38,554 bases of DNA from Candidatus Omnitrophota bacterium. Lineage in GTDB: Bacteria > Omnitrophota > Gorgyraeia > JAHIPI01. Below the pieces are notes generated by a model that saw nothing but the letters and a program-made list of their open reading frames with translations, was not told the origin of the DNA and did no database searches. The stretch covers positions 1-38,554 of the forward strand of contig JADHVZ010000018.1 in the NCBI GenBank assembly GCA_016783745.1. Reading direction: 5' to 3'. Below are positions 11,251 through 38,554 of this stretch, in pieces (the stretch's first letter is position 1; the number at the start of each line of letters is the position of its first letter). A program made the position numbers and the translations under genes.

Positions 11251-14089
11251 AAGGACAAGAAAAGAGAAGCGGGACCTGTCGTGGAAACTCACATACGAGA
11301 ACTTTATGCCCGCCAAAGAGGGCTTGCGTGAGGTATTATGCACGCTCGGTAACGGATACCTTGGAACACGGGGTGCCTCACCCGAGTCAAGGGCTTCAAG
11401 GATCCATTATCCGGGAACGTATATTGCCGGTGTGTATAATAAATTATCCACGGACATAGCCGGCAAGACAGTATCAAACGAAGCGTTTATAAACTGCACT
11501 AACTGGCTGCCCCTGACATTCAGGATCGAAAACGACGACTGGATAGTGCCTTCCTCATGCAAAATACTTTTCTATTATCAGGAGCTTGACATGCGCAGTG
11601 GAGTATTAAGCCGCAAGGTCCGTTTCCGGGAACGGAAAGGCTATACCTTTACCGTGGAGACGGCACGTATCGTACATATAGTCAAACCACATCTCGCCGC
11701 TATAAAATATGTGATCACGCCTGAGGATTATGAAGGCCCTATTACTATCCGCTCCGGACTTGATGGATCAGTTGAAAATAAGGGCGTCGCGAGGTATAGG
11801 CAGCTCAATTCAAGGCATCTCAAGGCGCATGCCGCAAGAAAAATAGATAAAAACACGATTCACCTTTCTGTCGTGACTTCTCAGTCAAAGATCGTGATAT
11901 CGCAAAGCGCAAGAACGCGTATATTCCGCTCCGGAGAAGAACTTCACGCGAAAAGCACTATGCAATTGAAGCATGAAAAGGCAATATACCAGGATTTCAC
12001 ATTGCGCGTTTGTAAGAACAATAGTTATGAAGTGGAAAAAATCGTTTCAATATATACTTCAAAAGATAAGGGAGTTAAAGACCCCGGCGTAGAATCCGTA
12101 CGCGCTCTAAAACGGCCGCTAAGATTTGACGGTTTAATAGAAAGCCATAGAAAGCGATGGGGATTATTGTGGAAGACCTTTGATATTAATATAAGCGGAG
12201 ACGCGACATTCCGGAAGATTTTAAGGCTTCACACATTCCATCTGATCCAGAGCGCTTCTTTTCATAATATCAATATAGACGCGGGCCTTCCGGCGCGCGG
12301 CCTGCATGGCGAGGCATACAGGGGCCATATATTCTGGGACCAGCTATTCGTTATGCCGTTTTATCTGCTAAGGGCTCCGCAAATAGCCAGGGCGCTGATC
12401 ATGTACAGATACAGGCGCCTTAAACAAGCCAGAAAGAATGCCAGGGAGGCCGGGTATAAGGGCGCGATGTTTCCGTGGCAAAGCGGCGCGGATGGTGACG
12501 AACAGACACAGTCGATACATCTCAATCCTATGTCAGGTAAATGGGATCCGGATTACAGCTTTCGTCAACGGCACGTATCGTTCGCGGTAGCCCATAACGT
12601 ATGGGAATACTGGTATAGTACGCGTGACACCGATTTCCTGTTTAAGTACGGAGCGGAAATACTACTTTCTATTTCTCAGTTCGCCTCCAGCCTTACCCGT
12701 TATAGTCACAGGGACGGCAGATATCACACAGAAGGCCTGATGGGACCGGATGAATTTCACGAAAAATTGCAGAGTTCCTCGGGAGCGGGCTTCAGAGATA
12801 ACGCATATACGAACGTATTTATCGTCGCAACACTGCTAAACACCTTTAAAGTGCTCCGTATATTGCCCGTGAGAATAAAGAGAAGGCTGCTCGAGAGGTT
12901 AGGCATAGATGATGAGGAGCTTATGCGGTGGGAGGATATAACGCGGAAGATGAATATTATCTTCAATAACGAAGGTATCATCGCTCAATTCGAAGATTAC
13001 TTTAGATTAAGAGAGATAGATCTTGACGCATATAGGGAGAAATACGGTAATGTCCACAGGATGGACAGGATACTTAAAGCAGAGGGCAAATCACCGAATG
13101 ACTACAAGGTAGCCAAGCAGGCGGACGTTCTCATGATGTTTTATATCTTCGAGATGTCCGAAATACGGCATATCCTTAACAGGTTGGGATACTATTTTGA
13201 CAGGGGACTTTTCAGCAAAAACTACGATTATTACATAAAAAAGACCTCCCACGGGTCAACGTTGAGTAAAGTAGTCCATTGTTATTTATCGCACCTGCTT
13301 CATAGGGACAGTGAGACATGGCAGTGGTACCTTGATGTGCTTAAGTCTGATATATATGATACGCAGGGAGGCACTACTCCCGAAGGTATACATACCGGTG
13401 TTATGGGCGGCTCCATTAACATCGCGATAAAAAGCTTTTGCGGAATAAACTTTCCTGACGACCGCATTAGAATAAGCCCCAGCCTGCCGAAAAACTGGCG
13501 GCGGATCAAGCTGAGATTTCTTTATAAAGGCAGATGGGTCTTTGTAAATATTACAAGGCGTTTGATAAGTATTTTTATAAGGGGACCCAAAAGTAGACAA
13601 GCGACTGTGGCTGTCGAGATATACGGCAAAAAGTATAAACTATCAATGGGCAGATTGCATAAGCTGCCCATTGATCGGGAAATTACCATGGCAGCGGCAG
13701 ACGGAGTCAAGAAAGTGGTCCAGGAAAAAGTGCTTATAGCAGACGGGGATATTTTACAAGCTGTCATGCTCAGAACAAGAATGGAAGCGCTCGGCTATCT
13801 GGCAGATTGTGTATATAGCGGACATGAGGCGCTGGATATATTAAAGACAGGATGGGTAGACCTTATTATCCTGGCGGTGTCGCTTCAGGGTAACATGAAT
13901 GGCTATCAATTACTGAAGGATATAAAAAAGCGCAAGAGATTTTCAAATATACCTATAATCATGCAGACAAAAAAGGCGGGCATGAAAAAGGTGTTTGAGC
14001 GCAGGGGCATTGACGCGTATTTCGTAAAACCTTATCCGGTGGAATTACTTTTAGATAAAGCTCAGAAAATAATTGGAACGAGAGGCTAA
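11222..14089 (+). CDS. Glycoside phosphorylase GH65 (trehalose/kojibiose/maltose phosphorylase-like) with C-terminal receiver-like domain
   Basis: WKLTYENFMPAKEGLREVLCTLGNGYLGTRGA, ARGLHGEAYRGHIFWDQLFVMPF, GPDEFHE, SHGSTLS are GH65 motifs; residues from ~13720 resemble REC (VLIADGDILQAVMLRTRMEALGY...FVKPYPVELLL). TTG start with AAGGAG upstream. Confidence 0.88.
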   Translation: MKRSSRYPLRRTRKEKRDLSWKLTYENFMPAKEGLREVLCTLGNGYLGTRGASPESRASRIHYPGTYIAGVYNKLSTDIAGKTVSNEAFINCTNWLPLTFRIENDDWIVPSSCKILFYYQELDMRSGVLSRKVRFRERKGYTFTVETARIVHIVKPHLAAIKYVITPEDYEGPITIRSGLDGSVENKGVARYRQLNSRHLKAHAARKIDKNTIHLSVVTSQSKIVISQSARTRIFRSGEELHAKSTMQLKHEKAIYQDFTLRVCKNNSYEVEKIVSIYTSKDKGVKDPGVESVRALKRPLRFDGLIESHRKRWGLLWKTFDINISGDATFRKILRLHTFHLIQSASFHNINIDAGLPARGLHGEAYRGHIFWDQLFVMPFYLLRAPQIARALIMYRYRRLKQARKNAREAGYKGAMFPWQSGADGDEQTQSIHLNPMSGKWDPDYSFRQRHVSFAVAHNVWEYWYSTRDTDFLFKYGAEILLSISQFASSLTRYSHRDGRYHTEGLMGPDEFHEKLQSSSGAGFRDNAYTNVFIVATLLNTFKVLRILPVRIKRRLLERLGIDDEELMRWEDITRKMNIIFNNEGIIAQFEDYFRLREIDLDAYREKYGNVHRMDRILKAEGKSPNDYKVAKQADVLMMFYIFEMSEIRHILNRLGYYFDRGLFSKNYDYYIKKTSHGSTLSKVVHCYLSHLLHRDSETWQWYLDVLKSDIYDTQGGTTPEGIHTGVMGGSINIAIKSFCGINFPDDRIRISPSLPKNWRRIKLRFLYKGRWVFVNITRRLISIFIRGPKSRQATVAVEIYGKKYKLSMGRLHKLPIDREITMAAADGVKKVVQEKVLIADGDILQAVMLRTRMEALGYLADCVYSGHEALDILKTGWVDLIILAVSLQGNMNGYQLLKDIKKRKRFSNIPIIMQTKKAGMKKVFERRGIDAYFVKPYPVELLLDKAQKIIGTRG

Positions 14090-23948: not shown

Positions 23949-23984
23949 TTTTAACCCCTCACACAACACTTCTTTTTTGCTAAT

Positions 23985-24012
23985 TGACTTTTCTATCCAT
24001 TAATGTTATATT
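23985..24012 (+). promoter_or_regulatory. Putative sigma-70-type promoter at the head of the glycosyltransferase/radical-SAM cluster
   Basis: TTGACT - 16 nt - TATATT in an AT-rich gap, about 60 nt before the start at 24074. Confidence 0.5.
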
Positions 24013-24073: not shown

Positions 24074-25045
24074 ATGGGAAAAGTGCTGATCATAAAACTT
24101 GGTTACTCAGAGACGCTTGACAAGGAGATCTCGCGGACCACTTCGTTGGGTGATGTCCTGAGGACAACATTTATATTAAATTTCTTTAAGCGTGACGATG
24201 TGAGCTGGTTTGTTGATGAAAAAGCCGCGCCGCTCTTGGAGAATAACCCTTATATAAGCCGCGTACTGATCCATAATCTTGAGACTGTGCTTCAGCTTCA
24301 GCATGAGCGCTTTGATACGGTCATCAATCTGGAAAAAGTCCCCGGTATATGCGCCCTTGCGGATTCGATCAGTGCATGGAGGAGGTTCGGGTTCAGATTT
24401 GATGAATATAGGGGAACTGCCCAGAGTTATGACGGCGCGGAAAAAGTTCTGGCGCTTTCTTCAAGCGACGATGAGAAGAGGGAGAACAAAAGATACTGGC
24501 AGGAGGCGCTTGCAGAGATGATAGGGAAAAACTGGAAAGGCGAAGGGTATGTATTGGGGCATAAGCCAAAAACAAAGCTTGTCCGCGATATCGGCTTTAA
24601 CTGGCAGACCGGCCAAAAATGGAGGAACAAGGCCTGGCCCAGGGAAAACTGGGAAGCGCTGGAGGGGCTCCTCAAAAATAATTATTCTATAGACTGGCAG
24701 CAGGGGCTGAACGATCTCCGCGAATATATGGACTGGATAAACACCTGCAAACTTATAGTGACCAATGACTCACTCGGTATGCACCTGGCGGTCGCGTTAA
24801 AAAGAAAGGTTATAGCCCTTTTTGGGCCCAGCTCTTCCAAGGAAGTCTATCTTTATGAAAAAGGAAAGATACTGCTCCCGAAGACAAGTTATAACTGCGT
24901 ACCGTGCCTTCAGAGAGAATGTTTTCAAAAAGAGCATTGCATGCATTTTATCAAGCCAAAGGATGTAGCAAAAGAGGCGGAAAAGATATTGAAGCAAGGT
25001 AAGCAAGCCGGGCACGCCAGATCCGCTATGGTAGGGGCAAAATAG
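24074..25045 (+). CDS. Glycosyltransferase family 9 (heptosyltransferase-like)
   Basis: KVLIIKLG...SLGDVLRTTFIL, VTNDSLGMHLAVALKRKVIALFGPSS, TSYNCVPCLQREC. Confidence 0.9.
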   Translation: MGKVLIIKLGYSETLDKEISRTTSLGDVLRTTFILNFFKRDDVSWFVDEKAAPLLENNPYISRVLIHNLETVLQLQHERFDTVINLEKVPGICALADSISAWRRFGFRFDEYRGTAQSYDGAEKVLALSSSDDEKRENKRYWQEALAEMIGKNWKGEGYVLGHKPKTKLVRDIGFNWQTGQKWRNKAWPRENWEALEGLLKNNYSIDWQQGLNDLREYMDWINTCKLIVTNDSLGMHLAVALKRKVIALFGPSSSKEVYLYEKGKILLPKTSYNCVPCLQRECFQKEHCMHFIKPKDVAKEAEKILKQGKQAGHARSAMVGAK

Positions 25046-25050
25046 CTTTA

Positions 25051-26115
25051 ATGGATGATTTCAGGATAGATTCACACAAGCTGATATATCATGTAGACAG
25101 GGTACGTGATTGGACTGTAGGCAAAAATATATACCCTCTTTACGCGGAAATATCTCCCTACGGCGGCTGTAATCACCGCTGCATTTTCTGCGCCCTTGAT
25201 TATCTGGAATATAAACCGCAGATGCTGGAGACGAATGTCCTGAAGCGTTTTCTAAAGGATATTACCCGGAAAGGCGTAAAGAGTATTATGTTCGCCGGAG
25301 AAGGGGAACCGCTCCTTCATAAGGATATGGCGGAGTTGATAAAATACGCGAAGGATCAGGGGTTAGATATAGCGATCACCACTAACGGCACACTATTGTC
25401 TAAGGCGCTTCTTGAAAGCATCCTCCCGCGCCTCAGCTGGCTTAGAATAAGCCTGAACGCGGGGACCGCGAAAAACTACGCCTCCATCCATAAAACACGC
25501 CCCGAAGATTTTAATAAGGTCATAGCGAATATAAAAGAAGCCGTGAAATTGAAAAAGAAGAAGCGGCTTTCATGCACCATAGGGGCCCAATTCCTGCTTT
25601 TAAACGAAAATTACAGGGACGCCGGGAAGCTGGCGGGCATATTAAAGGATAAAAAGGCGGATTATCTTATAATAAAACCCTATTCCCAGCACCCGCAAAG
25701 CCGTAATCGCCTCGGCGCGGGACTTCATTATGATAAGTTGCTGTATACGGAGAGAAGGCTTAGCGATTATAACAGCGGCAGTTTCCGGGTGGTCTTCAGG
25801 AAGCAGACAATGCTTAATCTCCGGGATGAGAAGCCATATGGTAAATGCCTGGGGCTGCCGTTCTGGACATATCTTGCTTCGTGGGGGGATCTATATGCGT
25901 GCAGCGCCTTTTTGGGCGATAAGCGCTTCTGCTACGGGAATATCTACAAAGAGTCTTTTGAAAAGGCATGGAATAGCCCGAAGAGAAAAAGTATAATGAA
26001 AATGATGGAGCGGGAGTGGGATATCAGTGATTGCAGGGAGGCCTGCAGGCTGGACGCGGTAAACAGGTATCTCTGGGAATTAAAGAATCCACCGGCACAT
26101 GTTAACTTTATATGA
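25051..26115 (+). CDS. Radical SAM protein (SPASM-like C-terminus)
   Basis: GGCNHRCIFCALDY (CxxxCxxC), MFAGEGEPLLHKDM, AITTNGTLL; Cys-rich C-terminal region. Confidence 0.93.
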   Translation: MDDFRIDSHKLIYHVDRVRDWTVGKNIYPLYAEISPYGGCNHRCIFCALDYLEYKPQMLETNVLKRFLKDITRKGVKSIMFAGEGEPLLHKDMAELIKYAKDQGLDIAITTNGTLLSKALLESILPRLSWLRISLNAGTAKNYASIHKTRPEDFNKVIANIKEAVKLKKKKRLSCTIGAQFLLLNENYRDAGKLAGILKDKKADYLIIKPYSQHPQSRNRLGAGLHYDKLLYTERRLSDYNSGSFRVVFRKQTMLNLRDEKPYGKCLGLPFWTYLASWGDLYACSAFLGDKRFCYGNIYKESFEKAWNSPKRKSIMKMMEREWDISDCREACRLDAVNRYLWELKNPPAHVNFI

Positions 26116-26137
26116 TGATAAGTAAACGTGGGTTAGC

Positions 26138-26239
26138 ACGTCACCACGTCACCAGGTCACACGTCACCAGGTCACACGTCACCAGGTCACACGTCACCAG
26201 TATAAGAAAACCCCTGGTGACCTTGTGACGTGGTGACGT
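26138..26239. repeat. 15-bp minisatellite (ACGTCACCAGGTCAC) with an inverted arm
   Basis: ACGTCACC; 3 full ACGTCACCAGGTCAC units 26146-26190; ACGTCACCAG; then CTGGTGACCTTGTGACGTGGTGACGT as the inverted arm (26214-26239). Confidence 0.85.
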
Positions 26240-26240
26240 T

Positions 26241-26322
26241 GTAACCCATGTTTCTTTACACTGGCATTCTGGTGACGTTGTGTCGTGTAACCCATGTTTC
26301 TTTACACTGGCATTCTGGTGAC
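26241..26322. repeat. Tandem duplication of a 36-bp block (46-bp period)
   Basis: GTAACCCATGTTTCTTTACACTGGCATTCTGGTGAC at 26241-26276 and 26287-26322, identical. Confidence 0.9.
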
Positions 26323-26367
26323 CCAGGTTTTACGTAAACCGTAAACCGACTATGTATTATCACGATT

Positions 26368-27183
26368 ATGACAGACATTAAATTTCTGCGACAAAAGGCG
26401 AACGAGATACGGAGCGAAGTTTTAAGAGTAGCCGTTCCCCACGGGGCCGGACATATAGCGCCCTCACTATCATGCCTGGATATACTCGTAGCGCTTTATT
26501 ATGAGTGCATGGCGTATGATCCTAAAAAACCGGCCTGGGAGGACCGCGACAGGCTTGTTTTTTCAAAAGGCCACGGCTGTTACGCCCTTTACGCGATCCT
26601 GAATGATCTGGGAGTCCTGCCGAAAGAAAAATGGGAAGGTTTTTATACTGAAAAAAGCGATCTTGCCGGCTGTATAGAAAGGCATTCGGAGTACGGGCTT
26701 GAAGCGGGCTGCGGTTCTCTGGGGCACGGTCTTCCTATAGCTACGGGGATCGCTTTCGGAGCTAAAATACAGAATAAGGGTTACCATACATTTTGCATAG
26801 CCGGAGACGGTGAATTACAGGAAGGATCCACCTGGGAGGCTCTGCAGTTTGCCGTTAAGCACGAAGTGGGTAACCTCATTATCATAGTCGACCACAATCG
26901 GTTACAGGCTATGGATTTTATCGTGAATATCCTCGATAGAGAAAAGACCGATCTCATCAAAAGATTACGTGGATTCGGCCTGTCTCCGGTTACATGCCCG
27001 GGACACAATATGCCCAAACTTGTCGATACAATAAAAACGGCGAAGGCAGCGTTTTCTAAAGTACCCAAAGTCATTGTCGCGGACACGATAAAAGGCCGTG
27101 GCTTGAAATGCATGGAAAACGTACCGAAATTTCATTTCAGGATCCCCACAAAGGAAGAGCTTTCGACGGGGAAAGACATATGA
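26368..27183 (+). CDS. Transketolase N-terminal (TPP-binding) subunit
   Basis: VPHGAGHIAPSLSCLDILVALYY, RDRLVFSKGHGCYALYA, GSLGHGLPIATGIAFGAK, IAGDGELQEGSTWEAL. Confidence 0.95.
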   Translation: MTDIKFLRQKANEIRSEVLRVAVPHGAGHIAPSLSCLDILVALYYECMAYDPKKPAWEDRDRLVFSKGHGCYALYAILNDLGVLPKEKWEGFYTEKSDLAGCIERHSEYGLEAGCGSLGHGLPIATGIAFGAKIQNKGYHTFCIAGDGELQEGSTWEALQFAVKHEVGNLIIIVDHNRLQAMDFIVNILDREKTDLIKRLRGFGLSPVTCPGHNMPKLVDTIKTAKAAFSKVPKVIVADTIKGRGLKCMENVPKFHFRIPTKEELSTGKDI

Positions 27184-27671
27184 GCAATACTAATGACTAT
27201 AGAAAAGAGATCATAGACACGCTTTTGCCTTATTTTAAAAAGGATGAACGCCTGCGCCTTTTAGTCTGTGATATGGGCTTCGGCGTTACGGATAAGTTAA
27301 AAGAAGTTATGCCGGAAAGTATGATGAACTGCGGCATCATGGAGCAGGGGACTGTGGGCGTAGCCGCGGGGATGGCCCTGAGCGGCCTCAGGCCGGTGGT
27401 CTATTCAATAGTAAATTTTCTGGTGTATAGAGCATTAGAGCAAATACGCAATGACCTGGTTTTGCAGAAGCTGAACGTCAAGCTTATCGGCACCGGATGT
27501 GACGACTATTTCAGTTTTTTAGGGCCTTCCCACTGTTGCGGTAAAGACGATATAGCTTTGATGAAATTGATCGATGTAAAAGTCTATGACCCTTATACGG
27601 ATAAAAGGCCGTTCAGCAAGTTAGTGGATGACTGGATAAATAGCGACGGCCCAGCCTATATCCGCGTATAG
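27180..27671 (+). CDS. Short transketolase pyrimidine-binding subunit (about 163 aa)
   Basis: NCGIMEQGTVGVAAGMALSGLRPVVYSI...FLGPSHCCGKDDIALMK; ATGA overlap with the N-terminal subunit; no transketolase C-terminal domain before the stop. Confidence 0.88.
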   Translation: MSNTNDYRKEIIDTLLPYFKKDERLRLLVCDMGFGVTDKLKEVMPESMMNCGIMEQGTVGVAAGMALSGLRPVVYSIVNFLVYRALEQIRNDLVLQKLNVKLIGTGCDDYFSFLGPSHCCGKDDIALMKLIDVKVYDPYTDKRPFSKLVDDWINSDGPAYIRV

Positions 27672-27685
27672 ACAGGAATCACTCT

Positions 27686-28438
27686 ATGCTACTGACAATC
27701 ATAATGCCCGCCCTCAACGAGGAGAATAACATCAATGCCGCTATTGATGATACTTTGTCCTCCTTCAGAGAATATAGTATTGACGGAGAAGTGCTGGTTA
27801 TAAACGACGGCAGTACGGATTCCACGCCTGATCTGATCAAACGTAAGGTAGAGGAGAATCCCGGGAAAGTAAGAACGCTTGACCATCCAAAGCCGCAGGG
27901 TATAGGTTCTTCATTCTGGGACGGTGCGGATAACGCTAAGGGCGATATAGTCTGCCTGCTGCCGGGCGATAATGAGAATATACCTGGTGAGATCTTACGC
28001 TACGTGGGGCTTATGGAAGACGTGGATCTGGTCATACCGTTTGTATTGAACAGAGAAGTGCGTTCGACTTTCCGAAGGTTCCTTTCAGCGAATTATGTCC
28101 GGTTTATAAATTGCAGCTTCAGGACCTCTCTTACTTACACGACGGGGACAGTCATCTACAGAAAATCTCTCCTTAAAGAATTAAAAACCAGGAGAATGGG
28201 CTTCTTTTTTCAGACAGATATACTGATCAGGCTGGTAAAGCGCGGATACCTCTTAGCCGAAGTCCCTTATAAATTACGGGAAAGGGGAGGCGGCAAGTCT
28301 AAAGCTGTCAGATTGCGCTCTCTCGGAGATATCGTAAGAGGCTATTTTAAGCTTTTAGCCGATATCTATTTCAAAAAAGAAAGCATAAAAAAGGCATATG
28401 CCCAGGACTCAGTTACGGCAAAGCGAAAAAGTGGTTAA
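27686..28438 (+). CDS. Glycosyltransferase family 2
   Basis: LLTIIMPALNEENNINAAIDDTLSSF, EVLVINDGSTDSTPDLI, DNAKGDIVCLLPGDNE. Confidence 0.93.
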   Translation: MLLTIIMPALNEENNINAAIDDTLSSFREYSIDGEVLVINDGSTDSTPDLIKRKVEENPGKVRTLDHPKPQGIGSSFWDGADNAKGDIVCLLPGDNENIPGEILRYVGLMEDVDLVIPFVLNREVRSTFRRFLSANYVRFINCSFRTSLTYTTGTVIYRKSLLKELKTRRMGFFFQTDILIRLVKRGYLLAEVPYKLRERGGGKSKAVRLRSLGDIVRGYFKLLADIYFKKESIKKAYAQDSVTAKRKSG

Positions 28439-29558
28439 GCATATAGAAGAGGTGAAACACCTCGTGCTTGACGGCCACAAGATGCTTTGGCACAAAGACA
28501 GGGTAGAGGCGTGGCTTGACGGCAAGAGGATAGCGCCGGTAACTATAGATTGTTCTCTGACCAGAAGGTGCAGTTATAGATGTGTATACTGTTACGGCCA
28601 GCTTCAGGCTAACGATGAGAAGAGGATGACCAGAGACGTGATCTTCCGTTTTCTCGATGATGCCGCGGAGATCGGTGTCAAGGGCGTAAGTTTTGTCAGT
28701 GACGGGGAAAGCACCTGTTCACCGCATATTTATGACGCTATAGTAAAGGGCAAAGCAAACGGCCTGGATATGGCGCTCGGTACCAACGGTTATCTGCTCA
28801 AGAACGAACGCCTGGAAGAGATCCTGCCCTGCCTTACTTATTTAAGATTCAACATTTCCGCCGCCCAGACCCGATCCTATGCCGAGATCATGGGCTGCAG
28901 CGAAAAGTGCTTCCATAAAGTGATCAATACAATAAAAAAGAGCGTTGAGATAAAACGGAAAAAGAAACTTTCCGTTACCATAGGCATGCAAATGGTCCTG
29001 ATGCCGCGATTCGCGGATCAGATCATACCGTTCGCTAATCTGGGTAAATCGCTCGGAGTCGACTACGCCATAATCAAGCACTGTAGCGATGACGAGAAAG
29101 GGAGCCTGGGTGTCGACTATTCGCAGTATTTTGAACTGGTGGATCTATTGAAGCAGGCAGAAGCGCTATCGACTAAAGACTATCTGGTCAAGGCGAAATG
29201 GTCCAAGATCTTAAGTGACGGAAAAAGAAAATACACCAAATGCTACGGCCCTGCCTTCATTATGCAGTTTTCAGGTTCGGGCCTGGTCGCGCCGTGCGGC
29301 ATGCTATTTAACAGCAGGTTCAAGAAAAACTTTCATATAGGCAATATAGCGGATACATCGTTCAAAAATATATGGAAGAGCAAAAGATATCGGGATGTCC
29401 TTGATCATATACATTCGGATAAATTCAATCCACAGACAGACTGTGGGACTCTTTGTCTGCAGCATAAGGTCAATGAGTTTCTCTGGGACTTGAAAAATGG
29501 GAAGGCAGACCTTAAGAAGCCGCCGGGCAAACCGCCGCAGCATATAAATTTCGTTTAA
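28398..29558 (+). CDS. Radical SAM protein (SPASM-like), paralogue of 25051-26115
   Basis: TRRCSYRCVYCYGQ, FVSDGESTCSPHI, LGTNGYLL; shares N-terminal HK(L/M)xxHxDRVxxW..GK.I.P and C-terminal VN(R/E)(Y/F)LW(E/D)LKN...PxH(V/I)NF(I/V) with 25051-26115. Confidence 0.92.
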   Translation: MPRTQLRQSEKVVKHIEEVKHLVLDGHKMLWHKDRVEAWLDGKRIAPVTIDCSLTRRCSYRCVYCYGQLQANDEKRMTRDVIFRFLDDAAEIGVKGVSFVSDGESTCSPHIYDAIVKGKANGLDMALGTNGYLLKNERLEEILPCLTYLRFNISAAQTRSYAEIMGCSEKCFHKVINTIKKSVEIKRKKKLSVTIGMQMVLMPRFADQIIPFANLGKSLGVDYAIIKHCSDDEKGSLGVDYSQYFELVDLLKQAEALSTKDYLVKAKWSKILSDGKRKYTKCYGPAFIMQFSGSGLVAPCGMLFNSRFKKNFHIGNIADTSFKNIWKSKRYRDVLDHIHSDKFNPQTDCGTLCLQHKVNEFLWDLKNGKADLKKPPGKPPQHINFV

Positions 29559-29705
29559 ACTTATTTTAAAAGACTTGATGAATAGAAGAACACTCCTAAA
29601 AGTCCTTCCGGGGCTGATATTTATTTTCATTCCTCATAATTTTGATGGCGCTTTTTGCGGGATATTACATATTTTTGCCCCGGAAACCGGAGATGCGTGA
29701 GTTTT

Positions 29706-30461
29706 ATGAAAAGTCAGGATAAAGTCTCTGAAGCCGCGTTCTTTGACGGGATTGCGGAAGCGGGAGAATACGATGCCCTGACTCAGCGGGCATATGACAG
29801 GCTGGTACTCTTTTTTGAAAGGTTTATCAAACCTGAACCTGGAGAAAAGCTGATAGATCTGGGGTGCGGAACAGGCGCTTTTACAAAAGAACTTAAAAAA
29901 TTCAGTCTGAATATAACAGCAGTCGATCTCTCTCAGAACGCGGTCAGTTCCGCAAAAAAGGATAATCCGGGATATTCCGCGATTTGCTCTGATATAGAAA
30001 AGCTGAGTTTTGCTGATGAAAGCTTTGATGTCGTGGTCTTCAGCGCGGTTTTACATCACTTTAAAGATTTTTCGAGATGCGCCTCTGAAGCTTACAGGGT
30101 GCTTAAGAAGGGGGGAAGGTTTTACGCCTTTGATCCTAATATGAGAAACCCTTTCATGAGGATCTACAGAAGCGCGCGTTCCGGCAAGGGTCGGAGAGCT
30201 CTACGGCCCGTAGGGCCGGAGGCCTCGCCATACACCGTCAATGAAAGGCTTTTATCAAAAGAGGAGCTGGAAAAGGCTTTTAAGGAAGCCGGTTTTTCCG
30301 CGTCTGTTCTGGCCGTATCCGGAATAGAGTTAAGGCAGGCAAATAGAGGAATATTTGACAGATTCCTCACTTTTTATAATCTGCTTGAAAGGGGCATGGC
30401 ATCATTGCCTCTCGCGCGATACTACGGATCGCATTTGATAACCTACGGCGTAAAGACGTAG
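29706..30461 (+). CDS. Class I SAM-dependent methyltransferase
   Basis: EKLIDLGCGTGAFTKEL, ITAVDLSQNAV, FDVVVFSAVLHHFKD, YRVLKKGGRFYAFDPN. Confidence 0.93.
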   Translation: MKSQDKVSEAAFFDGIAEAGEYDALTQRAYDRLVLFFERFIKPEPGEKLIDLGCGTGAFTKELKKFSLNITAVDLSQNAVSSAKKDNPGYSAICSDIEKLSFADESFDVVVFSAVLHHFKDFSRCASEAYRVLKKGGRFYAFDPNMRNPFMRIYRSARSGKGRRALRPVGPEASPYTVNERLLSKEELEKAFKEAGFSASVLAVSGIELRQANRGIFDRFLTFYNLLERGMASLPLARYYGSHLITYGVKT

Positions 30462-30479
30462 CATTCTTCAGGTACAAAA

Positions 30480-32969
30480 ATGGGTATGATATATTGTCTG
30501 AGCAAATGGTTGAAGCGTTTTCGCATATTAGTCCGCTTCATGCTATATAACCTGAGTATTGATAAGAGGCCTGTCTTTTCGGTGCTGACTGTTACCAGCC
30601 ACTGCAATTTCCGCTGTAAATACTGTTTCGGGGATTATCATAAGAGCCAGGAGAAGGACTTGTCCACGGAAAAGCTGCTGGAAACAGTCGATGAACTCGC
30701 GGACTTAGGCATTATTTACATAAATGTTCACGGCGGGGAAGCCCTTCTCCATAAAGACATGGGTAAGATCCTCACCAGAGCCCAAAAGCGGCATATGTTC
30801 GTCAATCTCATCACTAACGGGACCTTCCTTAAAAAATTCTGGGATGATGTTAAAGTAGTCGATACATTCTGCATCAGTCTGGACGGCCGTGAAGAAAATA
30901 ATGATCTCAATCGAGGGCCAGGTACATTCAAGATCGCCTCAGAAGCCATCGATTTTATTCTATCCAGGGGCCATACGCCGAGGATAGGCATGACGATAAG
31001 CAAACATACGATTGATGATATAGAGTGGCTGGCTGAGTGGGCAAAGGAAAGGCATATCTATATCCAGCCGTTCCTGCTTTTTGACCAGGAGCACCTTCCC
31101 AGAGAACTCTGGCTTACAAGGGAAGAAAATCACATGGCCCTTAGAAAGTTGATAAAACTCAAGAAAAAAGGCTATCCGATCTTCTACAGCCTGAAGACAT
31201 TGAATTACGCTCTGGACTGGCCTTTTGATAAGCCGATCTTAAGGGCCGGGGACATGAAGGACGTAAAAGTACCGAAGGATTTCAAGTTCATACCGTGCCT
31301 TTACAAGATATTGAACATAATTGTTGAGGCTAACGGCACTATCAGAAGCTGTAACGCCAAAATAAGAGGGGAATATCATACTTCCATACTCAACAAGTCC
31401 TTGAAAGACGCGAAGCGGAAGCTGCTTCAGATGGACGATTGCCTGTATTGTTATCATCTGCCTATAGTGGAGTTCAGCAACCTTATGTCCGTAAACCTTG
31501 AACCCGTGTTCGGCCAGTTCATAAATCAGGCGAGAGAGGATCTAAAAAGGCTCAAAAATCAATTATTCGCGAAGTGTGTTGCCTCCGCCGGCAAACCGGC
31601 AGTATTATTTATAAACCCACCCGGCCCCGAAAAGCTCTACCGGGGTATGATATGTACTTATATTTCAAAAGCCAATTATATCTGGCAGCCGTTTGACTTT
31701 GTGATCTTGAGCGCTCATATTCCGGAGAAGTATGACGTAAAACTCATCGACTGTAATATAGATACTTTATCGGTGCAGGGTTGCATAGAGAAGATAAAAA
31801 AGGCGGATCCTGCCGCAGTGATCGTTTCCATATCTTCTATCGTGCTTGAGAAAGATATGGAGTTCCTGCGTCAGTTAAGAAGTGCTTTTCCCGGTCTTAA
31901 GATATCGGTCTTAGGCGACGTAATGCTGGAGGACTCTTTTTGCCGTAAAGTGCGGGAATGCGGCGTAGACCTTATACTTGACCCTATGGATATCGATCTG
32001 TGTCAATATATTGAGACGGGCCGGGCTTCGTCACCGAATATAGTGATGTTCCGGGATATGAGGCCTGAGATCCACAGGAAAAAAGAAGACAAGGCAAAGA
32101 AGGTCTTGATAGGTATCCCCAGACATAAAGCATTCATAAACAGTAAGTACCGCGTCCCGTTCATGAGGCATTCTTTATACACTACAGTCTCGACTCAGTT
32201 TAGCTGTCCTTATAAGTGCCATTACTGTTCCTGCGCCAAGCTGCCTGTCACATATAGGGGGTATGATGAAGTCTTAAAAGAACTGGATTTTGTAAAAGAG
32301 CTTGGTATCCGAGAAATATATTTCAGCGATCCAAGCTTTGGCTATCCAAAAAATAATGTAAAACATCTTTTGCATTCTATGATCGATAAAAAATACTCCT
32401 TCAGCTGGTCTTGTTATTTTAATCCGGCCATGGGTACGGATGAGATGCTGAAGCTTATGAAAACGGCAGGATGCCACACAGTTATCATCGGTGTCGAGGA
32501 CGAAGATTTTGATATGCTTGGCTCGCGATTTGAAAGAAGGCTCAGCAAGGAGAAACTGTTCGAATTCACACAAAATTGTAAAAAACTGGGCATCAGGATC
32601 TGCGGAGATTTTATAATCGGCCTCAATGACAAGGAAGAGGCGTTTGAAAGAATAGTCGATCTGTCCATGAGGCTTGATCTGGATTACGCCTCTTTCAATA
32701 TATATACGCCTCTTATGGGCTCTATCGTGAGAGACGATATGATAAGAGACGGAAGCATATCTCCCGACGCTACAGGGTTTGATACTACCGGTGCCTCGAG
32801 AATGCCGGATAAGAAGTTAATAGAGCTTAGAGATAAGGCGGTAAGAAGCTTTTATCTCAGGCCGTCTTATATAGCGCGAAGGATATTGAGCTTAAAAAGG
32901 CCCGAAGAATTTTTTATTCAGTTCGCTGAGATGGTAGAGCTTTTTAAGCGATCATTCGCGAAAAGGTAG
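30480..32969 (+). CDS. Double radical SAM protein: N-terminal MoaA/SPASM-type plus C-terminal B12-binding-type radical SAM
   Basis: Two CxxxCxxC motifs in one frame: CNFRCKYC and CPYKCHYC; between them VLFINPPGPEKLY...YDVKLIDCNID...PAAVIVSISS resembles a cobalamin-binding-type domain. Confidence 0.9.
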   Translation: MGMIYCLSKWLKRFRILVRFMLYNLSIDKRPVFSVLTVTSHCNFRCKYCFGDYHKSQEKDLSTEKLLETVDELADLGIIYINVHGGEALLHKDMGKILTRAQKRHMFVNLITNGTFLKKFWDDVKVVDTFCISLDGREENNDLNRGPGTFKIASEAIDFILSRGHTPRIGMTISKHTIDDIEWLAEWAKERHIYIQPFLLFDQEHLPRELWLTREENHMALRKLIKLKKKGYPIFYSLKTLNYALDWPFDKPILRAGDMKDVKVPKDFKFIPCLYKILNIIVEANGTIRSCNAKIRGEYHTSILNKSLKDAKRKLLQMDDCLYCYHLPIVEFSNLMSVNLEPVFGQFINQAREDLKRLKNQLFAKCVASAGKPAVLFINPPGPEKLYRGMICTYISKANYIWQPFDFVILSAHIPEKYDVKLIDCNIDTLSVQGCIEKIKKADPAAVIVSISSIVLEKDMEFLRQLRSAFPGLKISVLGDVMLEDSFCRKVRECGVDLILDPMDIDLCQYIETGRASSPNIVMFRDMRPEIHRKKEDKAKKVLIGIPRHKAFINSKYRVPFMRHSLYTTVSTQFSCPYKCHYCSCAKLPVTYRGYDEVLKELDFVKELGIREIYFSDPSFGYPKNNVKHLLHSMIDKKYSFSWSCYFNPAMGTDEMLKLMKTAGCHTVIIGVEDEDFDMLGSRFERRLSKEKLFEFTQNCKKLGIRICGDFIIGLNDKEEAFERIVDLSMRLDLDYASFNIYTPLMGSIVRDDMIRDGSISPDATGFDTTGASRMPDKKLIELRDKAVRSFYLRPSYIARRILSLKRPEEFFIQFAEMVELFKRSFAKR

Positions 32970-32973
32970 GTAT

Positions 32974-34125
32974 ATGTTGAATAAACCCGTCGTATTTATA
33001 CAAAATGCCGGCTACGATTCCATGAAACAGGCCGTTGATAACATATTTGCCGCCTTTCCGCTTGATGTAAAAGATAAACTTGTTTGGGTCAAACCTAACA
33101 TGTTGGGAGATTATGTCCCTGAAAGGCACGCCACCACACATCCCGCGGTCGTATCGGCTATAGTGAAAAAGCTTGAATCTTTAGGCGCGAATGTGGTTGT
33201 TGGAGATAATTCCGGCATACAGATCATGGTCTCTGATATGGTAGTAGCCTCCAAGACAGGTTTGCTAGGGGCATCACAGGACAGATTTAAAAATATAAGT
33301 GATGAAGTGGTCTTTAAAAAAATAGGCCCGAATTCGCGGGAAGATGTAGCGGTCTCAAAAATAATAGAAGATTGCGATATATTTATATCCGTTCCTAAGA
33401 TGAAGACTCATCTACAGACTTATATCACGGGAGCGGTAAAGAATTCATATGGTTTTGTGGTGGGAAATCAAAAGCCCAGATTGCACATGAAGTACCCGGG
33501 TTTCAGGGAATTTGCCGGGATAGTGGCCGATATCTATAATATCAGAAAACCTGACCTTGTTATCGTAGACGCGGTCTACGCCATGGAGGGTGACGGCCCG
33601 AATTCCCCGAAGGTCAGGCGGCTCGATAAGGTATTCGCCTCTACGGATGGTGTGGCCCTGGATCACTATATGGCAAAGATCATGGGTATGGATGTAAGTA
33701 AAATAGCGCTTTTAAAATATTGCGTAGAAAATGACATGGGTTCGCCGGTATATGAGCTCAGGGGCGGAGATGAGGAGGCTATCAATGATTTCAAGCTACC
33801 TAGGACTTATTATAATATAAACGCGAGCAATTCTCTCGTTGATACATTGATATACCGTTTTATAATGGCGAAGAAGATCGCTATAAACAAAAAAAGCTGT
33901 ACGTTGTGCAAAAAATGCTACAACGTGTGCCCTGCCGTAGCGATAAGCTGGAAGGACGGCCCCATCATCGACAATGAAAGATGCATTCTTTGCTTCTGCT
34001 GCAAAGAGATGTGCGATCAGGATGCTATTTCTTTTGCTAAGAGATACGTTTACGTCCAGAAGATGCTCGGCCTCCTGAATACGATGAAGGATAAGATCTC
34101 CATGAAAAGGAGAAATAATGGCTGA
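32974..34125 (+). CDS. DUF362 protein with C-terminal 2x[4Fe-4S] ferredoxin domain
   Basis: VWVKPNMLG...HPAVVSAIVKKLESLGANVVVGDNSG, PKMKTHLQTYITGAVKN; CTLCKKCYNVCP and CILCFCCKEMC. Confidence 0.9.
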   Translation: MLNKPVVFIQNAGYDSMKQAVDNIFAAFPLDVKDKLVWVKPNMLGDYVPERHATTHPAVVSAIVKKLESLGANVVVGDNSGIQIMVSDMVVASKTGLLGASQDRFKNISDEVVFKKIGPNSREDVAVSKIIEDCDIFISVPKMKTHLQTYITGAVKNSYGFVVGNQKPRLHMKYPGFREFAGIVADIYNIRKPDLVIVDAVYAMEGDGPNSPKVRRLDKVFASTDGVALDHYMAKIMGMDVSKIALLKYCVENDMGSPVYELRGGDEEAINDFKLPRTYYNINASNSLVDTLIYRFIMAKKIAINKKSCTLCKKCYNVCPAVAISWKDGPIIDNERCILCFCCKEMCDQDAISFAKRYVYVQKMLGLLNTMKDKISMKRRNNG

Positions 34126-35188
34126 TATAGCCCGTAGATTCAAGTACCGCTACTTTCCTACCCTCAAAGCTGCTGCCAAAGTCACTCAGGGTTATGTCAC
34201 AAAAAAACGTATGCCTTTATATACCAGTTTATTCATTACTCAACGGTGCAATTTAAAATGTGTTTACTGTTTTCCAAAATCACAGGAGAGGAGAGAATCT
34301 GATATTCCGCTGGATAAGTTATTTAAAATAGTCGACGAGCTTTATGAAGCGGGATGCCGTTTTATCACAATACTGGGCGGAGAGCCGATGCTTCGGAGCG
34401 ATTTCGGTGAAATCGTAGATTATATAACGAAAAAAGGAATACTCGCCGAGGTGTCGACCAACGGCTATTTCATAAAAAAATGGCCCGAGGCGATCAGGAA
34501 GCTTTTTCTTGTATGCAACAGCATCGACGGAGATGAGGAGACGCACGATGCCAATCGGGGTAAAGGGTCGTTTAGAAAAGTAATGGAAAGTATAGAATTC
34601 TGCCGAGAACATAATGTGCCCGTTCAGCTCCGGTCGGTGATCACCTCTAATAACGTTGATAAACTCCAGTTTATGCTGGATCTGGCAAAGAAGGTTGGGA
34701 CGACATTGAGTTTAGGGGAGCAATGTGTGGATGCCGACCGAAATCCTTATGAAGCCAGCCCTGAGGAATACCGCGAGTTTTGGAAGTTTATAGAAAAAAA
34801 GAAGAAAGAAGGGTACCTCATTGATAAATCACATACATGCCTCAAGAATATAATAAGATACCCTTTAGATGCCCCGCTCAATAAGATTTTCATGGACGGT
34901 GAGGAATTGCCGCCTTCCATGCCGCAGGATATGCCGAAATGCACTATACGTAACGGATTTTGTCTTTTAGATAACAACGGTATGCTTTATCCCTGTATCC
35001 CACTTTTTGGAAAGTGGGGAAAGAATGTCTTTGAACTGGGAGTCAAGGGCGCATGGGAAGGCCTGATGGAGCATAAATGCAGGTTTTGCAGGTCAAGCGT
35101 TTATGATATGAAGAGTTTTTTCTTTGGCACCGACCGCTATTCTATGATCGATATGGCCCGTTATATGTTGAATAAGAATTGTCAGTGA
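34118..35188 (+). CDS. Radical SAM/SPASM protein
   Basis: TQRCNLKCVYCFPKSQ, ITILGGEPMLRSDF, EVSTNGYFI, C-terminal Cys cluster. Confidence 0.93.
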   Translation: MADIARRFKYRYFPTLKAAAKVTQGYVTKKRMPLYTSLFITQRCNLKCVYCFPKSQERRESDIPLDKLFKIVDELYEAGCRFITILGGEPMLRSDFGEIVDYITKKGILAEVSTNGYFIKKWPEAIRKLFLVCNSIDGDEETHDANRGKGSFRKVMESIEFCREHNVPVQLRSVITSNNVDKLQFMLDLAKKVGTTLSLGEQCVDADRNPYEASPEEYREFWKFIEKKKKEGYLIDKSHTCLKNIIRYPLDAPLNKIFMDGEELPPSMPQDMPKCTIRNGFCLLDNNGMLYPCIPLFGKWGKNVFELGVKGAWEGLMEHKCRFCRSSVYDMKSFFFGTDRYSMIDMARYMLNKNCQ

Positions 35189-35201
35189 CGCCGAGGAGTT
35201 T

Positions 35202-36230
35202 ATGAAAGATTATTTATCGGATTTTAAGGCGGATATAGCTCAGATTACCCCTAATGGACTATGCCCGTTACTGTACCATACTTTAATACCTTATATAGTG
35301 ACGCTCTTGGACGGGGGCTGGTTCGGCTGGATAGAAAAAAAGAAAGATACAAACTATCGTAAAAAGATAGATCCGAAAGACTTTAATAAATCAAGCGTGG
35401 ATAGATTATATCCAAATGAAGTATTGGTCCAGTGCCCGAATATCAATGCTTCTATAATCGTAGGAGTAGGCCCGTATATAAATTCCCGCGGAGAACGGGA
35501 AGTCCTCTTAAGGATTTTGAATAAGAAGGGTGAGTGCCCCAACAATCTTGAAATAGGCAATGAAATTATCCTGAATAAAAATGATTTTAAGATCTCTCCC
35601 ACCGAATACAATGCCGGATTTCCCTCGCTTTTGCTTAGTCGATTGAGCGGCAAGGAATCACTATCCGATCATTTCTGCAATAATCCTCTGAAAAATCGAT
35701 CTGTCAGTGTTGAGGATATAGAGGCGAGGTGCCGCTATCATAAGAAGAAATCGAGCTATGCGGATTCATTGCTGCCCGGCGATTTTTGTATGGATATCTT
35801 CCATCTGATCTATCCCCAGGTGTTGGCGTTATTATACAGTAGCGATAAAAAAATGAATAATTTTACGTATTCGTGCCCTATATCCGGAGAAAGGGTGACG
35901 ATAAAAGCGGAAAAAGTACCTCGTTTTAATACGATATTAGGGGGATTCAGGAAAATTTTAATAAAAATATTTAAAGCCGTATTCTTTCCCTATGATTTTA
36001 TAGACGACAACATAGTCTTTACCGTAGAAAAAAGCAGAGATGTCAAAGATTGTGCGCTAGACGAGAAAAAGAAATATTATTTCAATATGTTTGACGAGCG
36101 ATATCCCTGCCCTTCTTCTCTGCATGCATTGTATCCGTATATGTTGCTTAGAGCTCATAATATGGAATTGCCGTGGTCGGATGTTGTACATTGTCCCGGC
36201 TGCAAAGGTATAACTTACAGCATAAAATGA
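35202..36230 (+). CDS. Uncharacterised CP-rich protein with repeated TIGR04076-like modules
   Basis: NGLCPLLYHTLIPYIVTLLDGG, PGDFCMDIFHLIYPQVLALLYSSD and RYPCPSSLHALYPYMLLRAHNM repeat one pattern, each followed by a (V/Y)xCP segment. Confidence 0.6.
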   Translation: MKDYLSDFKADIAQITPNGLCPLLYHTLIPYIVTLLDGGWFGWIEKKKDTNYRKKIDPKDFNKSSVDRLYPNEVLVQCPNINASIIVGVGPYINSRGEREVLLRILNKKGECPNNLEIGNEIILNKNDFKISPTEYNAGFPSLLLSRLSGKESLSDHFCNNPLKNRSVSVEDIEARCRYHKKKSSYADSLLPGDFCMDIFHLIYPQVLALLYSSDKKMNNFTYSCPISGERVTIKAEKVPRFNTILGGFRKILIKIFKAVFFPYDFIDDNIVFTVEKSRDVKDCALDEKKKYYFNMFDERYPCPSSLHALYPYMLLRAHNMELPWSDVVHCPGCKGITYSIK

Positions 36231-37264
36231 AAAAGCAAATGACAGGCAAGCCGGTTTTAAGACTCTCAGGCGGTGAGAATCCTTATCAGGCACCGGGGGA
36301 CCTATTCGCTTCCGATAGTAAAGACCGCCTTTCACTGCGGCGGCTGCAATCGCAGAATGCCGGCGTTCCCTGTTTCACCAATTTAGCGGATGCGGACTCT
36401 ATTTTACATACGCTTTGCCTGGCAGCGGAAGCTTTCCGCCTGCGATATAAAAAGGCCCCTTTTATATCTATTGCGGCCAAGCATGGCAATCCTTGCGGAA
36501 TGGCAGCTGAGTGGGGCTCGACTGAGAAAACGGTTCTTTCGTCGCTTTTGGGAAACCCACTGGCTGTCTGGGGAGGCGAATTTATCGCCAACTTTAAAAT
36601 TGATGAAAGAATAGCCCACTTATTATTAAAAAGTGTGAGCCGAAAAAAGAGATTCGGGAATGCCTATTGGATGCTTGATGTAATCATTGCGCCGGATTTT
36701 GACGAAAAGGCCGTTGATGTCCTTAGTAAGCGCTCTTCGAGGAAGTTATATAAGAATCCACAGCTTTATAACCCCCGATTACCGGCGTCATCCTGGCGAT
36801 ATCGCCAGGTTAGAGGCGGTTTCCTACGCCAACCGTCTCCCGATTATATTTTGGATTTTACTAAGGTGGAATGTGATGGCGCACGATTGAGCGGTCAGAT
36901 AGCCGATAGTATAATCCTCGCCTGGAGCGTTGCGTATAGTTCATTTCACGGAGGCAATGAGATAGCGATAGTGAAAGAAAATCAACTTTTAGGAGTGGGT
37001 GGCGGGCCTTCTACCCTTGATGCGGCTAAAACTGCATTATTAAGAGCACAAGCAAGCGGACATGATACTACTAATTCAGTATTTGCGGCAGACGCCTTTT
37101 TTCCGTTTACCGATGCTCCCGCCGTATTAAAGGAAGCCGGCTGCTGCCTGGGTGTTGTCCCCTCCGGAGGCAAAAATGAGTTATCAGTGAGGCATTTTTT
37201 TAAAGAAAACAACATCAATATGATATTTATTCCGCCTCAATACAGAGGATTCTGCCGTCATTAG
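36227..37264 (+). CDS. Standalone AICAR transformylase-like protein (PurH C-terminal domain homologue)
   Basis: LRLSGGENPYQA, IAAKHGNPCGMA (catalytic Lys-His motif), FAADAFFPFTDAPAVLKEAG; no IMP cyclohydrolase domain. ATGA overlap with the upstream gene; start 36227 preferred over 36173. Confidence 0.82.
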   Translation: MKKQMTGKPVLRLSGGENPYQAPGDLFASDSKDRLSLRRLQSQNAGVPCFTNLADADSILHTLCLAAEAFRLRYKKAPFISIAAKHGNPCGMAAEWGSTEKTVLSSLLGNPLAVWGGEFIANFKIDERIAHLLLKSVSRKKRFGNAYWMLDVIIAPDFDEKAVDVLSKRSSRKLYKNPQLYNPRLPASSWRYRQVRGGFLRQPSPDYILDFTKVECDGARLSGQIADSIILAWSVAYSSFHGGNEIAIVKENQLLGVGGGPSTLDAAKTALLRAQASGHDTTNSVFAADAFFPFTDAPAVLKEAGCCLGVVPSGGKNELSVRHFFKENNINMIFIPPQYRGFCRH

Positions 37265-37266
37265 CC

Positions 37267-38554
37267 ATGAAGATAAGAAAGATAGTATTATGTAATTTGC
37301 CGTTGGATGGCGAACTTCAGTACTATATATCGCCGCCATATTTTCTGAAGGATGCCGTCAGTTATCCGCCCTTAGGCCTGCTTTATATAGCCGCGCAGAT
37401 TTACGACGCCGAAGTTAAGCTTATCGATACATCCTGCAATGTGAAGCTGACCATAGATGATACGGCCCGGAGGATCATAGATGAGAAGCCGGATATTCTC
37501 GGAATTACCGGTTACAGCATAAGGGCCTACGCGTTAAAGACGATATGCGAAAAGGTCAGCAGGGAGCTCGGGGACGCTGCGCGCATAGTAGTCGGAGGCA
37601 ACCATACGGAACTTTATCCTATTGAGACCCTTCGATATCCGGGTGTCAATTATGTTCTGAAAGGCGAGGCCGATTATACATTCCCGCAACTCGTAAAGGC
37701 TATAGATGACGGGGAGAAGGAAGGGGATCTTTCCGCGATTAACGGCCTCTACTTTTGTGGCGCCTCCGGTCAGATTCAGGCAAACGACTACAAGGAGGCG
37801 TCTTTTAATCTTGATGGAATCCCCTTTCCGAGGAGGGACCTGGTCGATTTCAGCCTTTACTCCACACTCGCGCAGGATACGACGACCATGACATCACTCG
37901 TCTCAAGCAGGGGCTGTTCCTTCAAGTGCATCTTCTGTGATGTGCCGATAAAGAAGATCCGCTTCCGCTCTCCGGAAAATGTAGTCGAGGAGATCGAAGA
38001 GATGATGAAGATGGGAGTGAACGAATTCAGCTTCTTTGATGACTGTTTCAATGTCGATCCGAATCGGGTAGTCAGGATATGCAGGCTTATCATCGAGCGA
38101 AAACTGAATATTAAATGGTGCTGCCGCCTGCGGCCTGCCCCTTTTACCGAGGAGATGGCCGAGGCGATGGCCGCATCGGGATGCAACCGGCTTCATTTCG
38201 GCGTCGAATCGACCAACAATGATATTCTTCGGTACATGCGAAAAGGGATCACCTACGAACAGTCGAAGAGGACACTCGATCTCTGCAAAAAGTATAAGCT
38301 GAAGCCGCTCATATACCTCATGTTCGGTTTTCCGGGGGAGGATATGAAGATGCTGAAGGAGGGCGAAAAGCTGATTTTGAATGAGTTGAGGCCCGACTAT
38401 ATCTTTCCGAGTATACTATTCCCGCTGGGCGGAACGGTCTTTTACCGCCAACTCCTTACGAGCGGAAAGCTGAAATATGACTTTTGGGCAGATTATATCA
38501 ATAATCCTACGCGTGATTATAAAGTGCCAAAATTCCGTACGCCGGAAGAAGATG
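37267..38554 (+). CDS. B12-binding radical SAM protein, truncated by the window end
   Basis: ATG 37267, open to the end: SYPPLGLLYIAAQIYDAEVKLIDTSCN (B12-binding-type) and SSRGCSFKCIFCDVP (CxxxCxxC). Missing from the ORF track because no stop falls inside the window. Confidence 0.92.
   Translation, partial: MKIRKIVLCNLPLDGELQYYISPPYFLKDAVSYPPLGLLYIAAQIYDAEVKLIDTSCNVKLTIDDTARRIIDEKPDILGITGYSIRAYALKTICEKVSRELGDAARIVVGGNHTELYPIETLRYPGVNYVLKGEADYTFPQLVKAIDDGEKEGDLSAINGLYFCGASGQIQANDYKEASFNLDGIPFPRRDLVDFSLYSTLAQDTTTMTSLVSSRGCSFKCIFCDVPIKKIRFRSPENVVEEIEEMMKMGVNEFSFFDDCFNVDPNRVVRICRLIIERKLNIKWCCRLRPAPFTEEMAEAMAASGCNRLHFGVESTNNDILRYMRKGITYEQSKRTLDLCKKYKLKPLIYLMFGFPGEDMKMLKEGEKLILNELRPDYIFPSILFPLGGTVFYRQLLTSGKLKYDFWADYINNPTRDYKVPKFRTPEED

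Follow-up and report, generated by a model that had tools for sequence, protein, structure and literature searches.

A putative surface-glycan locus in an Omnitrophota genome that joins radical SAM enzymes, a split transketolase and a divergent PurH-like protein

The described systems closest to the locus examined here are the purine enzyme PurH, the ADP-heptose pathway with its GT9 heptosyltransferases (GmhA, HldE and RfaF type), the sugar and nucleoside-sugar radical S-adenosylmethionine (SAM) enzymes BlsE and DesII, the TIGR04076 family, for which only a guess at a redox or iron-cluster role has been offered (PMC8667426), and the hopanoid enzymes HpnH and HpnJ. The locus occupies positions 24074-38554 of contig JADHVZ010000018.1 from a Candidatus Omnitrophota bacterium (assembly GCA_016783745.1); the whole contig, 38,554 nucleotides (nt) long, was analysed and is referred to as the window. 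Thirteen genes are present: GT9, rSAM1, TKN, TKC, GT2 and rSAM2 (module A), a methyltransferase gene, and rSAM3d, DUF362, rSAM4, CP, PurHL and B12-rSAM (module B).

Each described system matches part of this locus. PurHL shares its fold family with PurH and, in most relatives, its domain order, but it forms a separate clade and adjoins radical SAM genes. GT9 in the window recalls the ADP-heptose pathway, as do the GmhA-like and HldE-like genes that take its place in relatives; unlike that pathway, the members encoded at these loci fall under equivalog cut-offs and are joined with a thiamine pyrophosphate (TPP)-enzyme pair and two SPASM radical enzymes. BlsE and DesII are the closest solved relatives of rSAM1 and are among the closest folds to rSAM4, although identity is low, the neighbourhood is different and scores lie far under the DesII and BlsE model cut-offs. 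CP and its homologs exceed the curated TIGR04076 cut-off, whereas the CP modules are arranged in tandem, are fused in the window protein and adjoin rSAM4-type genes. Both rSAM3d and B12-rSAM are detectably similar to HpnH and HpnJ, but score only 63-121 bits, with cut-offs at 225 and 578.

We conclude that an unusual decoration of surface sugars, formed through chemistry not previously described, is the probable product of the locus. On balance we lean towards a surface-glycan locus of two modules that builds and attaches an unusual building block, with PurHL as the formyltransferase for a substrate other than the ribotide 5-aminoimidazole-4-carboxamide ribonucleotide (AICAR). The glycan context is well supported, and is the best-supported part of this reading. 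The surface-glycan setting suggested by the original prediction is borne out by module A, which lies beside GmhA-like, HldE-like and nucleoside diphosphate (NDP)-sugar epimerase genes in relatives, and by PurHL loci, which are found among glycan genes. Genes around the loci include those for NDP-sugar epimerases, NeuB, D-heptose-type proteins, GT2, GT4 and GT9 glycosyltransferases, PMT-type transferases and a flippase-like protein, several of these names being assigned by eye.

PurHL as a divergent relative of PurH

The residues of PurHL that would contact AICAR or act in the cyclohydrolase site were compared using a published list (PMC3261824); motif positions, and residue roles beyond that list, are our own assignment. 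Lys266, His267, Asn431 and Arg588 are retained in 19 of 19 PurHL sequences. Arg207, Tyr208 and Arg451, which contact AICAR, are retained in none of the 19 but in all 21 ordinary PurH sequences. This pattern looks like a change of substrate with conserved chemistry. Since catalytic residues are kept but substrate-contacting ones are lost, purine formylation by PurHL is unlikely. Thus, the gene originally described as AICAR-transformylase-like does belong to the AICAR formyltransferase (AICARFT) family and has its catalytic residues, but probably does not have its purine substrate. The window protein scores 111 bits and a full-length relative (L046) 165 bits, both of which miss the NCBIfam PurH equivalog cut-off of 402.

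Most relatives also have an N-terminal inosine monophosphate (IMP)-cyclohydrolase-like domain, which is absent from the window protein, as it is from L055. Where present, this domain almost always retains His68, Tyr104, Asp125 and Lys137, and it has lost Arg64, Lys66, Asn101, the STGGT loop and the RVK motif.

All 19 PurHL sequences lie on one side of a branch (support 100/100) that separates them from the 21 ordinary PurH sequences. The clade spans at least seven phyla, and their intermixing within it fits lateral transfer of PurHL. A separate ordinary PurH is encoded in the host genome and in most genomes that carry PurHL.

Conservation of the two modules

A scan of one genome per species recovered 18 PurHL loci (46-52% identity), which together with the window and three further loci gave a set of 22. 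The 18 loci of the scan belong to records from Nitrospinota, Omnitrophota, Deltaproteobacteria (Myxococcota), Nitrospirota, Lentisphaerota, Planctomycetota, SAR324, Geobacter (Thermodesulfobacteriota) and Magnetococcales (Pseudomonadota). Genes for a tandem TIGR04076 protein and an rSAM4- or rSAM1-type enzyme occur within about 2.2 kb of PurHL in 14 of the 22 loci (the window, L044, L045, L046, L047, L051, L053, L056, L057, L058, L059, L060, L093 and L102). The order in L058 (DUF362, rSAM4, CP, rSAM4, PurHL) repeats that of the window, and L098 has DUF362, CP and rSAM4; DUF362 is thus a conserved partner in both. A B12-rSAM relative (31% identity) lies immediately 3' of PurHL in genome G021, the TIGR04076 part is fused to a short-chain dehydrogenase in L057, and one Nitrospinaceae genome encodes three separate CP-PurHL copies. 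Among 384 genomes of the class, PurHL was found in four and matches to the CP model in eight, and all four are within the eight (hypergeometric p = 8e-8, with no correction for kinship or model bias). On contigs that lack PurHL, the TIGR04076 protein usually still adjoins an rSAM4- or rSAM1-type gene (G033, L091, L094, L095, L097-L101). This pair, which persists without a PurHL gene on the same contig, is thus more constant than PurHL. In plasmid searches, neither PurHL nor CP gave a match.

The TIGR04076 family itself is present in 99 of the 384 class genomes, mostly as double-module proteins of ~200 amino acids (aa). In L091, L096 and L103, proteins of this type are encoded next to one or two beta-ketoacyl synthase genes. 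Also in L091 (9099-15379), a CP-rSAM4 pair is directly 5' of genes for a nucleoside phosphorylase, an IF-2B/MtnA-like isomerase, a class II aldolase and an aldehyde dehydrogenase; this set looks like a salvage route for 5'-deoxyadenosine, a by-product of radical SAM enzymes. The PurHL cluster of G021 encodes a 764-aa protein in which a type I phosphodiesterase-like domain is fused to a methyltransferase (L039, 11817-14108).

Module A was followed through rSAM1, for which orthologs (E <= 1e-100) were identified in 54 of the 384 class genomes, including its own, with identity of up to 66%; its paralog rSAM2 is often a few kb away. No rSAM1 ortholog was reported in three family members (G001-G003). 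Neighbourhoods were counted in the 20 best-matching rSAM1 regions, which were chosen by match quality and do not provide prevalence estimates. The exact order of the window, from GT9 to rSAM2, occurs in two (L130 and L132). A TPP-enzyme pair is beside rSAM1 in 16 of the 20 (split transketolase in ten, E1 alpha/beta in six), rSAM2 is present in 16 and GT2 in 15. The upstream slot is filled by GT9 in ten regions (5' of rSAM1 in, for example, L130, L132, L133, L134, L136 and L139) or by an HldE-like kinase/nucleotidyltransferase in eight, and a GmhA-like SIS isomerase, found in seven, accompanies most of the HldE-like genes. These HldE-like and GmhA-like proteins are heptose-pathway relatives that fall under equivalog cut-offs. 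GmhA-like and HldE-type nucleotidyltransferase genes are also adjacent on contig 42 of the host genome.

The E1 alpha/beta dehydrogenase pair takes the slot of the split transketolase in L131, L133, L134, L136, L139 and L144, an apparent exchange of TPP enzymes within the same operon. A third short radical SAM protein (L136, 12851-13705, with relatives in L133, L138, L139, L141 and L146) is encoded beside module A in six of the 20 regions and is absent from the window.

The original prediction envisaged one system across all 13 genes. Gene order is indeed conserved in relatives, but as two separate modules and not as one unit: A and B were not found joined in the other loci examined. A single conserved 13-gene cluster was therefore rejected, as its halves are conserved separately. 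Chance adjacency of the genes was also rejected, given the recurrent gene order in unrelated genomes.

Layout of the locus and predicted proteins

All genes named in the original prediction were recovered on the + strand, and their family calls held (Table 1). Most overlap or are separated from their neighbours by <20 nt; the gaps between the 13 genes are, in order, 5, 252, -4, 14, -41, 96, 18, 4, -8, 13, -4 and 2 nt, with overlaps confirmed at 27180, 28398, 34118 and 36227. Position 38554 is the end of the contig, so the cluster is cut there and the B12-rSAM gene is incomplete. The host genome (1.66 Mb, 93% complete) is assembled in 54 contigs. A single promoter upstream of the cluster had been proposed. 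A 10/12 match is present at 23984-24012, but such matches are near chance frequency (38 observed vs 30.1 ± 5.3 expected in shuffled sequence), which leaves transcription as a single unit unsupported.

Table 1. Features of the locus, with domain matches and bit scores where available.
Feature	Position	Strand	Domains and remarks
GT9, heptosyltransferase family, first gene of module A	24074..25045	+	PF01075, 59.4 bits (cut-off 22)
rSAM1, radical SAM/SPASM	25051..26115	+	PF04055 and PF13186
Repeat element	26119-26322		15-nt direct repeats, 42-nt inverted repeat, two identical 37-nt copies; fills the rSAM1-TKN gap
TKN, transketolase N (TPP-binding) half	26368..27183	+	PF00456, 106.6 bits
TKC, transketolase pyrimidine-binding half	27180..27671	+	PF02779 only, residues 6-162 of 163
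GT2 glycosyltransferase	27686..28438	+	PF00535, 73.5 bits
rSAM2, radical SAM/SPASM, rSAM1 paralog	28398..29558	+	PF04055 and PF13186
SAM-dependent methyltransferase	29655..30461	+	PF08241, 98.9 bits
rSAM3d, fusion of N-terminal radical SAM and C-terminal HpnJ-like radical SAM, 829 aa	30480..32969	+	two PF04055 stretches
DUF362 protein with 4Fe-4S ferredoxin domain	32974..34125	+	PF04015, 157.2 bits; PF00037
rSAM4, radical SAM, SPASM-like tail	34118..35188	+	PF04055, 85.3 bits
CP (Cys-Pro) protein, tandem TIGR04076-like modules	35202..36230	+	TIGR04076, 40.8 bits (cut-off 33)
PurHL, PurH-like AICARFT domain	36227..37264	+	PF01808, 88.6 bits (cut-off 25)
B12-rSAM, B12-binding radical SAM, cut by contig end	37267..38554	+	PF02310 and PF04055

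Contigs 42 and 52 of the host genome also carry the core of the repeat element. The gap that it fills measures 252 nt in the window and a few nt in relatives such as L130 and L132; because rSAM1 and TKN abut in these relatives, the element was probably inserted and probably stands outside the system.

In module A, GT9 falls under the cut-offs of all lipopolysaccharide (LPS) heptosyltransferase models (54.8 bits vs 134.6 at best for RfaF/RfaC/RfaQ-type equivalogs). The domain combination that defines SPASM radical SAM proteins is present in both rSAM1 and rSAM2, and the solved structures closest to rSAM1 by sequence are BlsE, followed by others that include DesII. The TPP-binding N domain and the pyrimidine-binding domain of transketolase are both encoded, split over two genes, and TKC lacks the third domain (C-terminal PF02780). 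A relative of the methyltransferase (34.9% identity) is encoded in a polysaccharide locus of G033.

In module B, residues 376-803 of rSAM3d match TIGR03471 with 109 bits (cut-off 577.6). Only the ferredoxin part of the DUF362 protein matched PDB entries. rSAM4 has a CxxxCxxC motif and four tail cysteines (C275, C293, C321 and C324), invariant in 14 of 14 aligned rows, although PF13186 was not matched. Among PDB folds, those of SuiB and BlsE come closest to its AlphaFold2 model (pLDDT 83.4), with 16-19% identity for the DesII/BlsE-type fold matches; by sequence, the best PDB match of rSAM4 is SkfB. The modelled likeness to both SuiB and BlsE is compatible with a peptide or a sugar substrate. 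All six CP homologs tested exceed the TIGR04076 cut-off (38-96 bits). An alignment profile search gave no PDB relative of CP, and a Foldseek search was unproductive (best E 0.71, with a model pLDDT of only 70.9).

Elsewhere in the window, three features were recognised by eye only: an IS200/IS605-like pair on the - strand (1220-2781; TnpB, 387 aa, and TnpA, 133 aa), a 955-aa protein that joins a family 65 sugar phosphorylase-like region with a response-regulator receiver domain (11222-14089), and an adjoining HAD/trehalose-phosphatase-like fusion (9634-11250).

Proposed pathway and alternative explanations

The chemistry proposed here (two-carbon transfer, radical modification and formyl transfer) is inferred from knowledge of the families, the order and conservation of whose genes are given above. 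In module A, GT9 and GT2 would handle a heptose-type sugar, the split transketolase (E1 alpha/beta in relatives) may put a TPP-bound two-carbon or acyl unit onto that sugar, and rSAM1 and rSAM2 would carry out radical chemistry on it. In module B, a decorating group would be built by rSAM3d, rSAM4 and B12-rSAM with electrons from the DUF362-ferredoxin protein. The tandem TIGR04076 protein might assist by binding or as a scaffold, which is a guess. PurHL would formylate an amine, with 10-formyl-tetrahydrofolate as donor, on a substrate other than the AICAR ribotide, and in most relatives the retained IMP-cyclohydrolase-like domain could add a ring-closing or ring-opening step. Only tentatively do we go further and suggest that PurHL is a neofunctionalised bifunctional formyltransferase/cyclohydrolase with a non-ribotide substrate, in a laterally spread rSAM-TIGR04076 pathway that builds a heterocyclic or formamido glycan decoration. 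An HpnH-like transfer of an adenosyl group, after which PurHL would act on a 5'-linked nucleoside, is no more than a possible lead. We found no description of purine-type ring chemistry in glycans, and literature searches on DUF362 with radical SAM, on purH homologs in gene clusters, and on radical SAM with transketolase and O-antigen returned nothing relevant.

Several observations weigh against a two-module glycan pathway of this kind. Among the loci examined, modules A and B occur together in full only in the window, and the window PurHL has lost the domain to which a ring step is assigned. Eight of the 22 PurHL loci have no TIGR04076 gene nearby (three of these are at contig ends), and in L055/L104 PurHL stands alone among housekeeping genes. 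The co-occurrence count is helped by the make-up of the CP search model, for which most sequences were taken from beside PurHL. TIGR04076 double-module proteins also adjoin beta-ketoacyl synthase genes, making a lipid role possible for the TIGR04076 protein.

It is quite possible, if somewhat short of an even chance, that modules A and B work as independent pathways and are simply neighbours in this genome, which would be compatible with a glycan reading of each. Each is found separately elsewhere, on different contigs in G021 and G104, and the 96-nt gap before the methyltransferase gene may mark their border. However, A and B run in the same direction, and the terminator-like sites that separate them are weak examples of a type frequent by chance. 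Split transketolase genes lie near PurHL in L047 and L092, and rSAM1-like genes are paired with a TIGR04076 protein in L051, L059 and L099, so components move between the two sets. We consider it unlikely that the product of module B is a modified membrane lipid or glycolipid of hopanoid- or ladderane-like type, made through HpnH- and HpnJ-like chemistry and capped by glycosyltransferases. The best NCBIfam matches of rSAM3d and B12-rSAM do include HpnJ, HpnH and rSAM_ladder_B12, and the beta-ketoacyl synthase neighbours in L091, L096 and L103 point the same way. These matches are nevertheless far under curated cut-offs, none of the 13 genes was recognisably an acyl, acyl carrier protein or terpenoid gene, and most PurHL loci have NDP-sugar and glycosyltransferase genes instead of lipid genes.

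The SPASM domains of rSAM1 and rSAM2, together with the likeness of rSAM4 to SuiB in fold and to SkfB in sequence, would suit a ribosomally synthesized and post-translationally modified peptide (RiPP) matured by SPASM-type enzymes. This is very improbable and was rejected, as up to position 38554 the gaps leave no room for a precursor gene, being at most 96 nt apart from the one filled by repeats, and all RiPP maturase models scored far under cut-off. The original prediction had likewise seen no obvious precursor, and the spaces between genes agree; short open reading frames in related loci were not systematically sought. Least credible of all is a PurHL that acts as a stand-alone AICAR transformylase, supplementing purine synthesis and placed in the operon by chance. 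Such a role would fit its PF01808 fold family and catalytic Lys-His pair, but the residue losses and the separate PurH of the host and most other genomes led us to reject it; the score far below the PurH cut-off, and linkage to radical SAM and TIGR04076 genes that recurs in unrelated phyla, argue in the same direction.

A core purine enzyme was apparently re-tooled once, with its catalytic residues retained and its hold on the substrate lost, and then spread over at least seven phyla with radical SAM enzymes and TIGR04076 proteins. PurHL can be assayed and has a definite predicted cofactor, and it offers a functional foothold for the TIGR04076 family. Across the class, module A points to a connection of heptose-type sugars with TPP enzymes and radical SAM chemistry in these uncultured bacteria.

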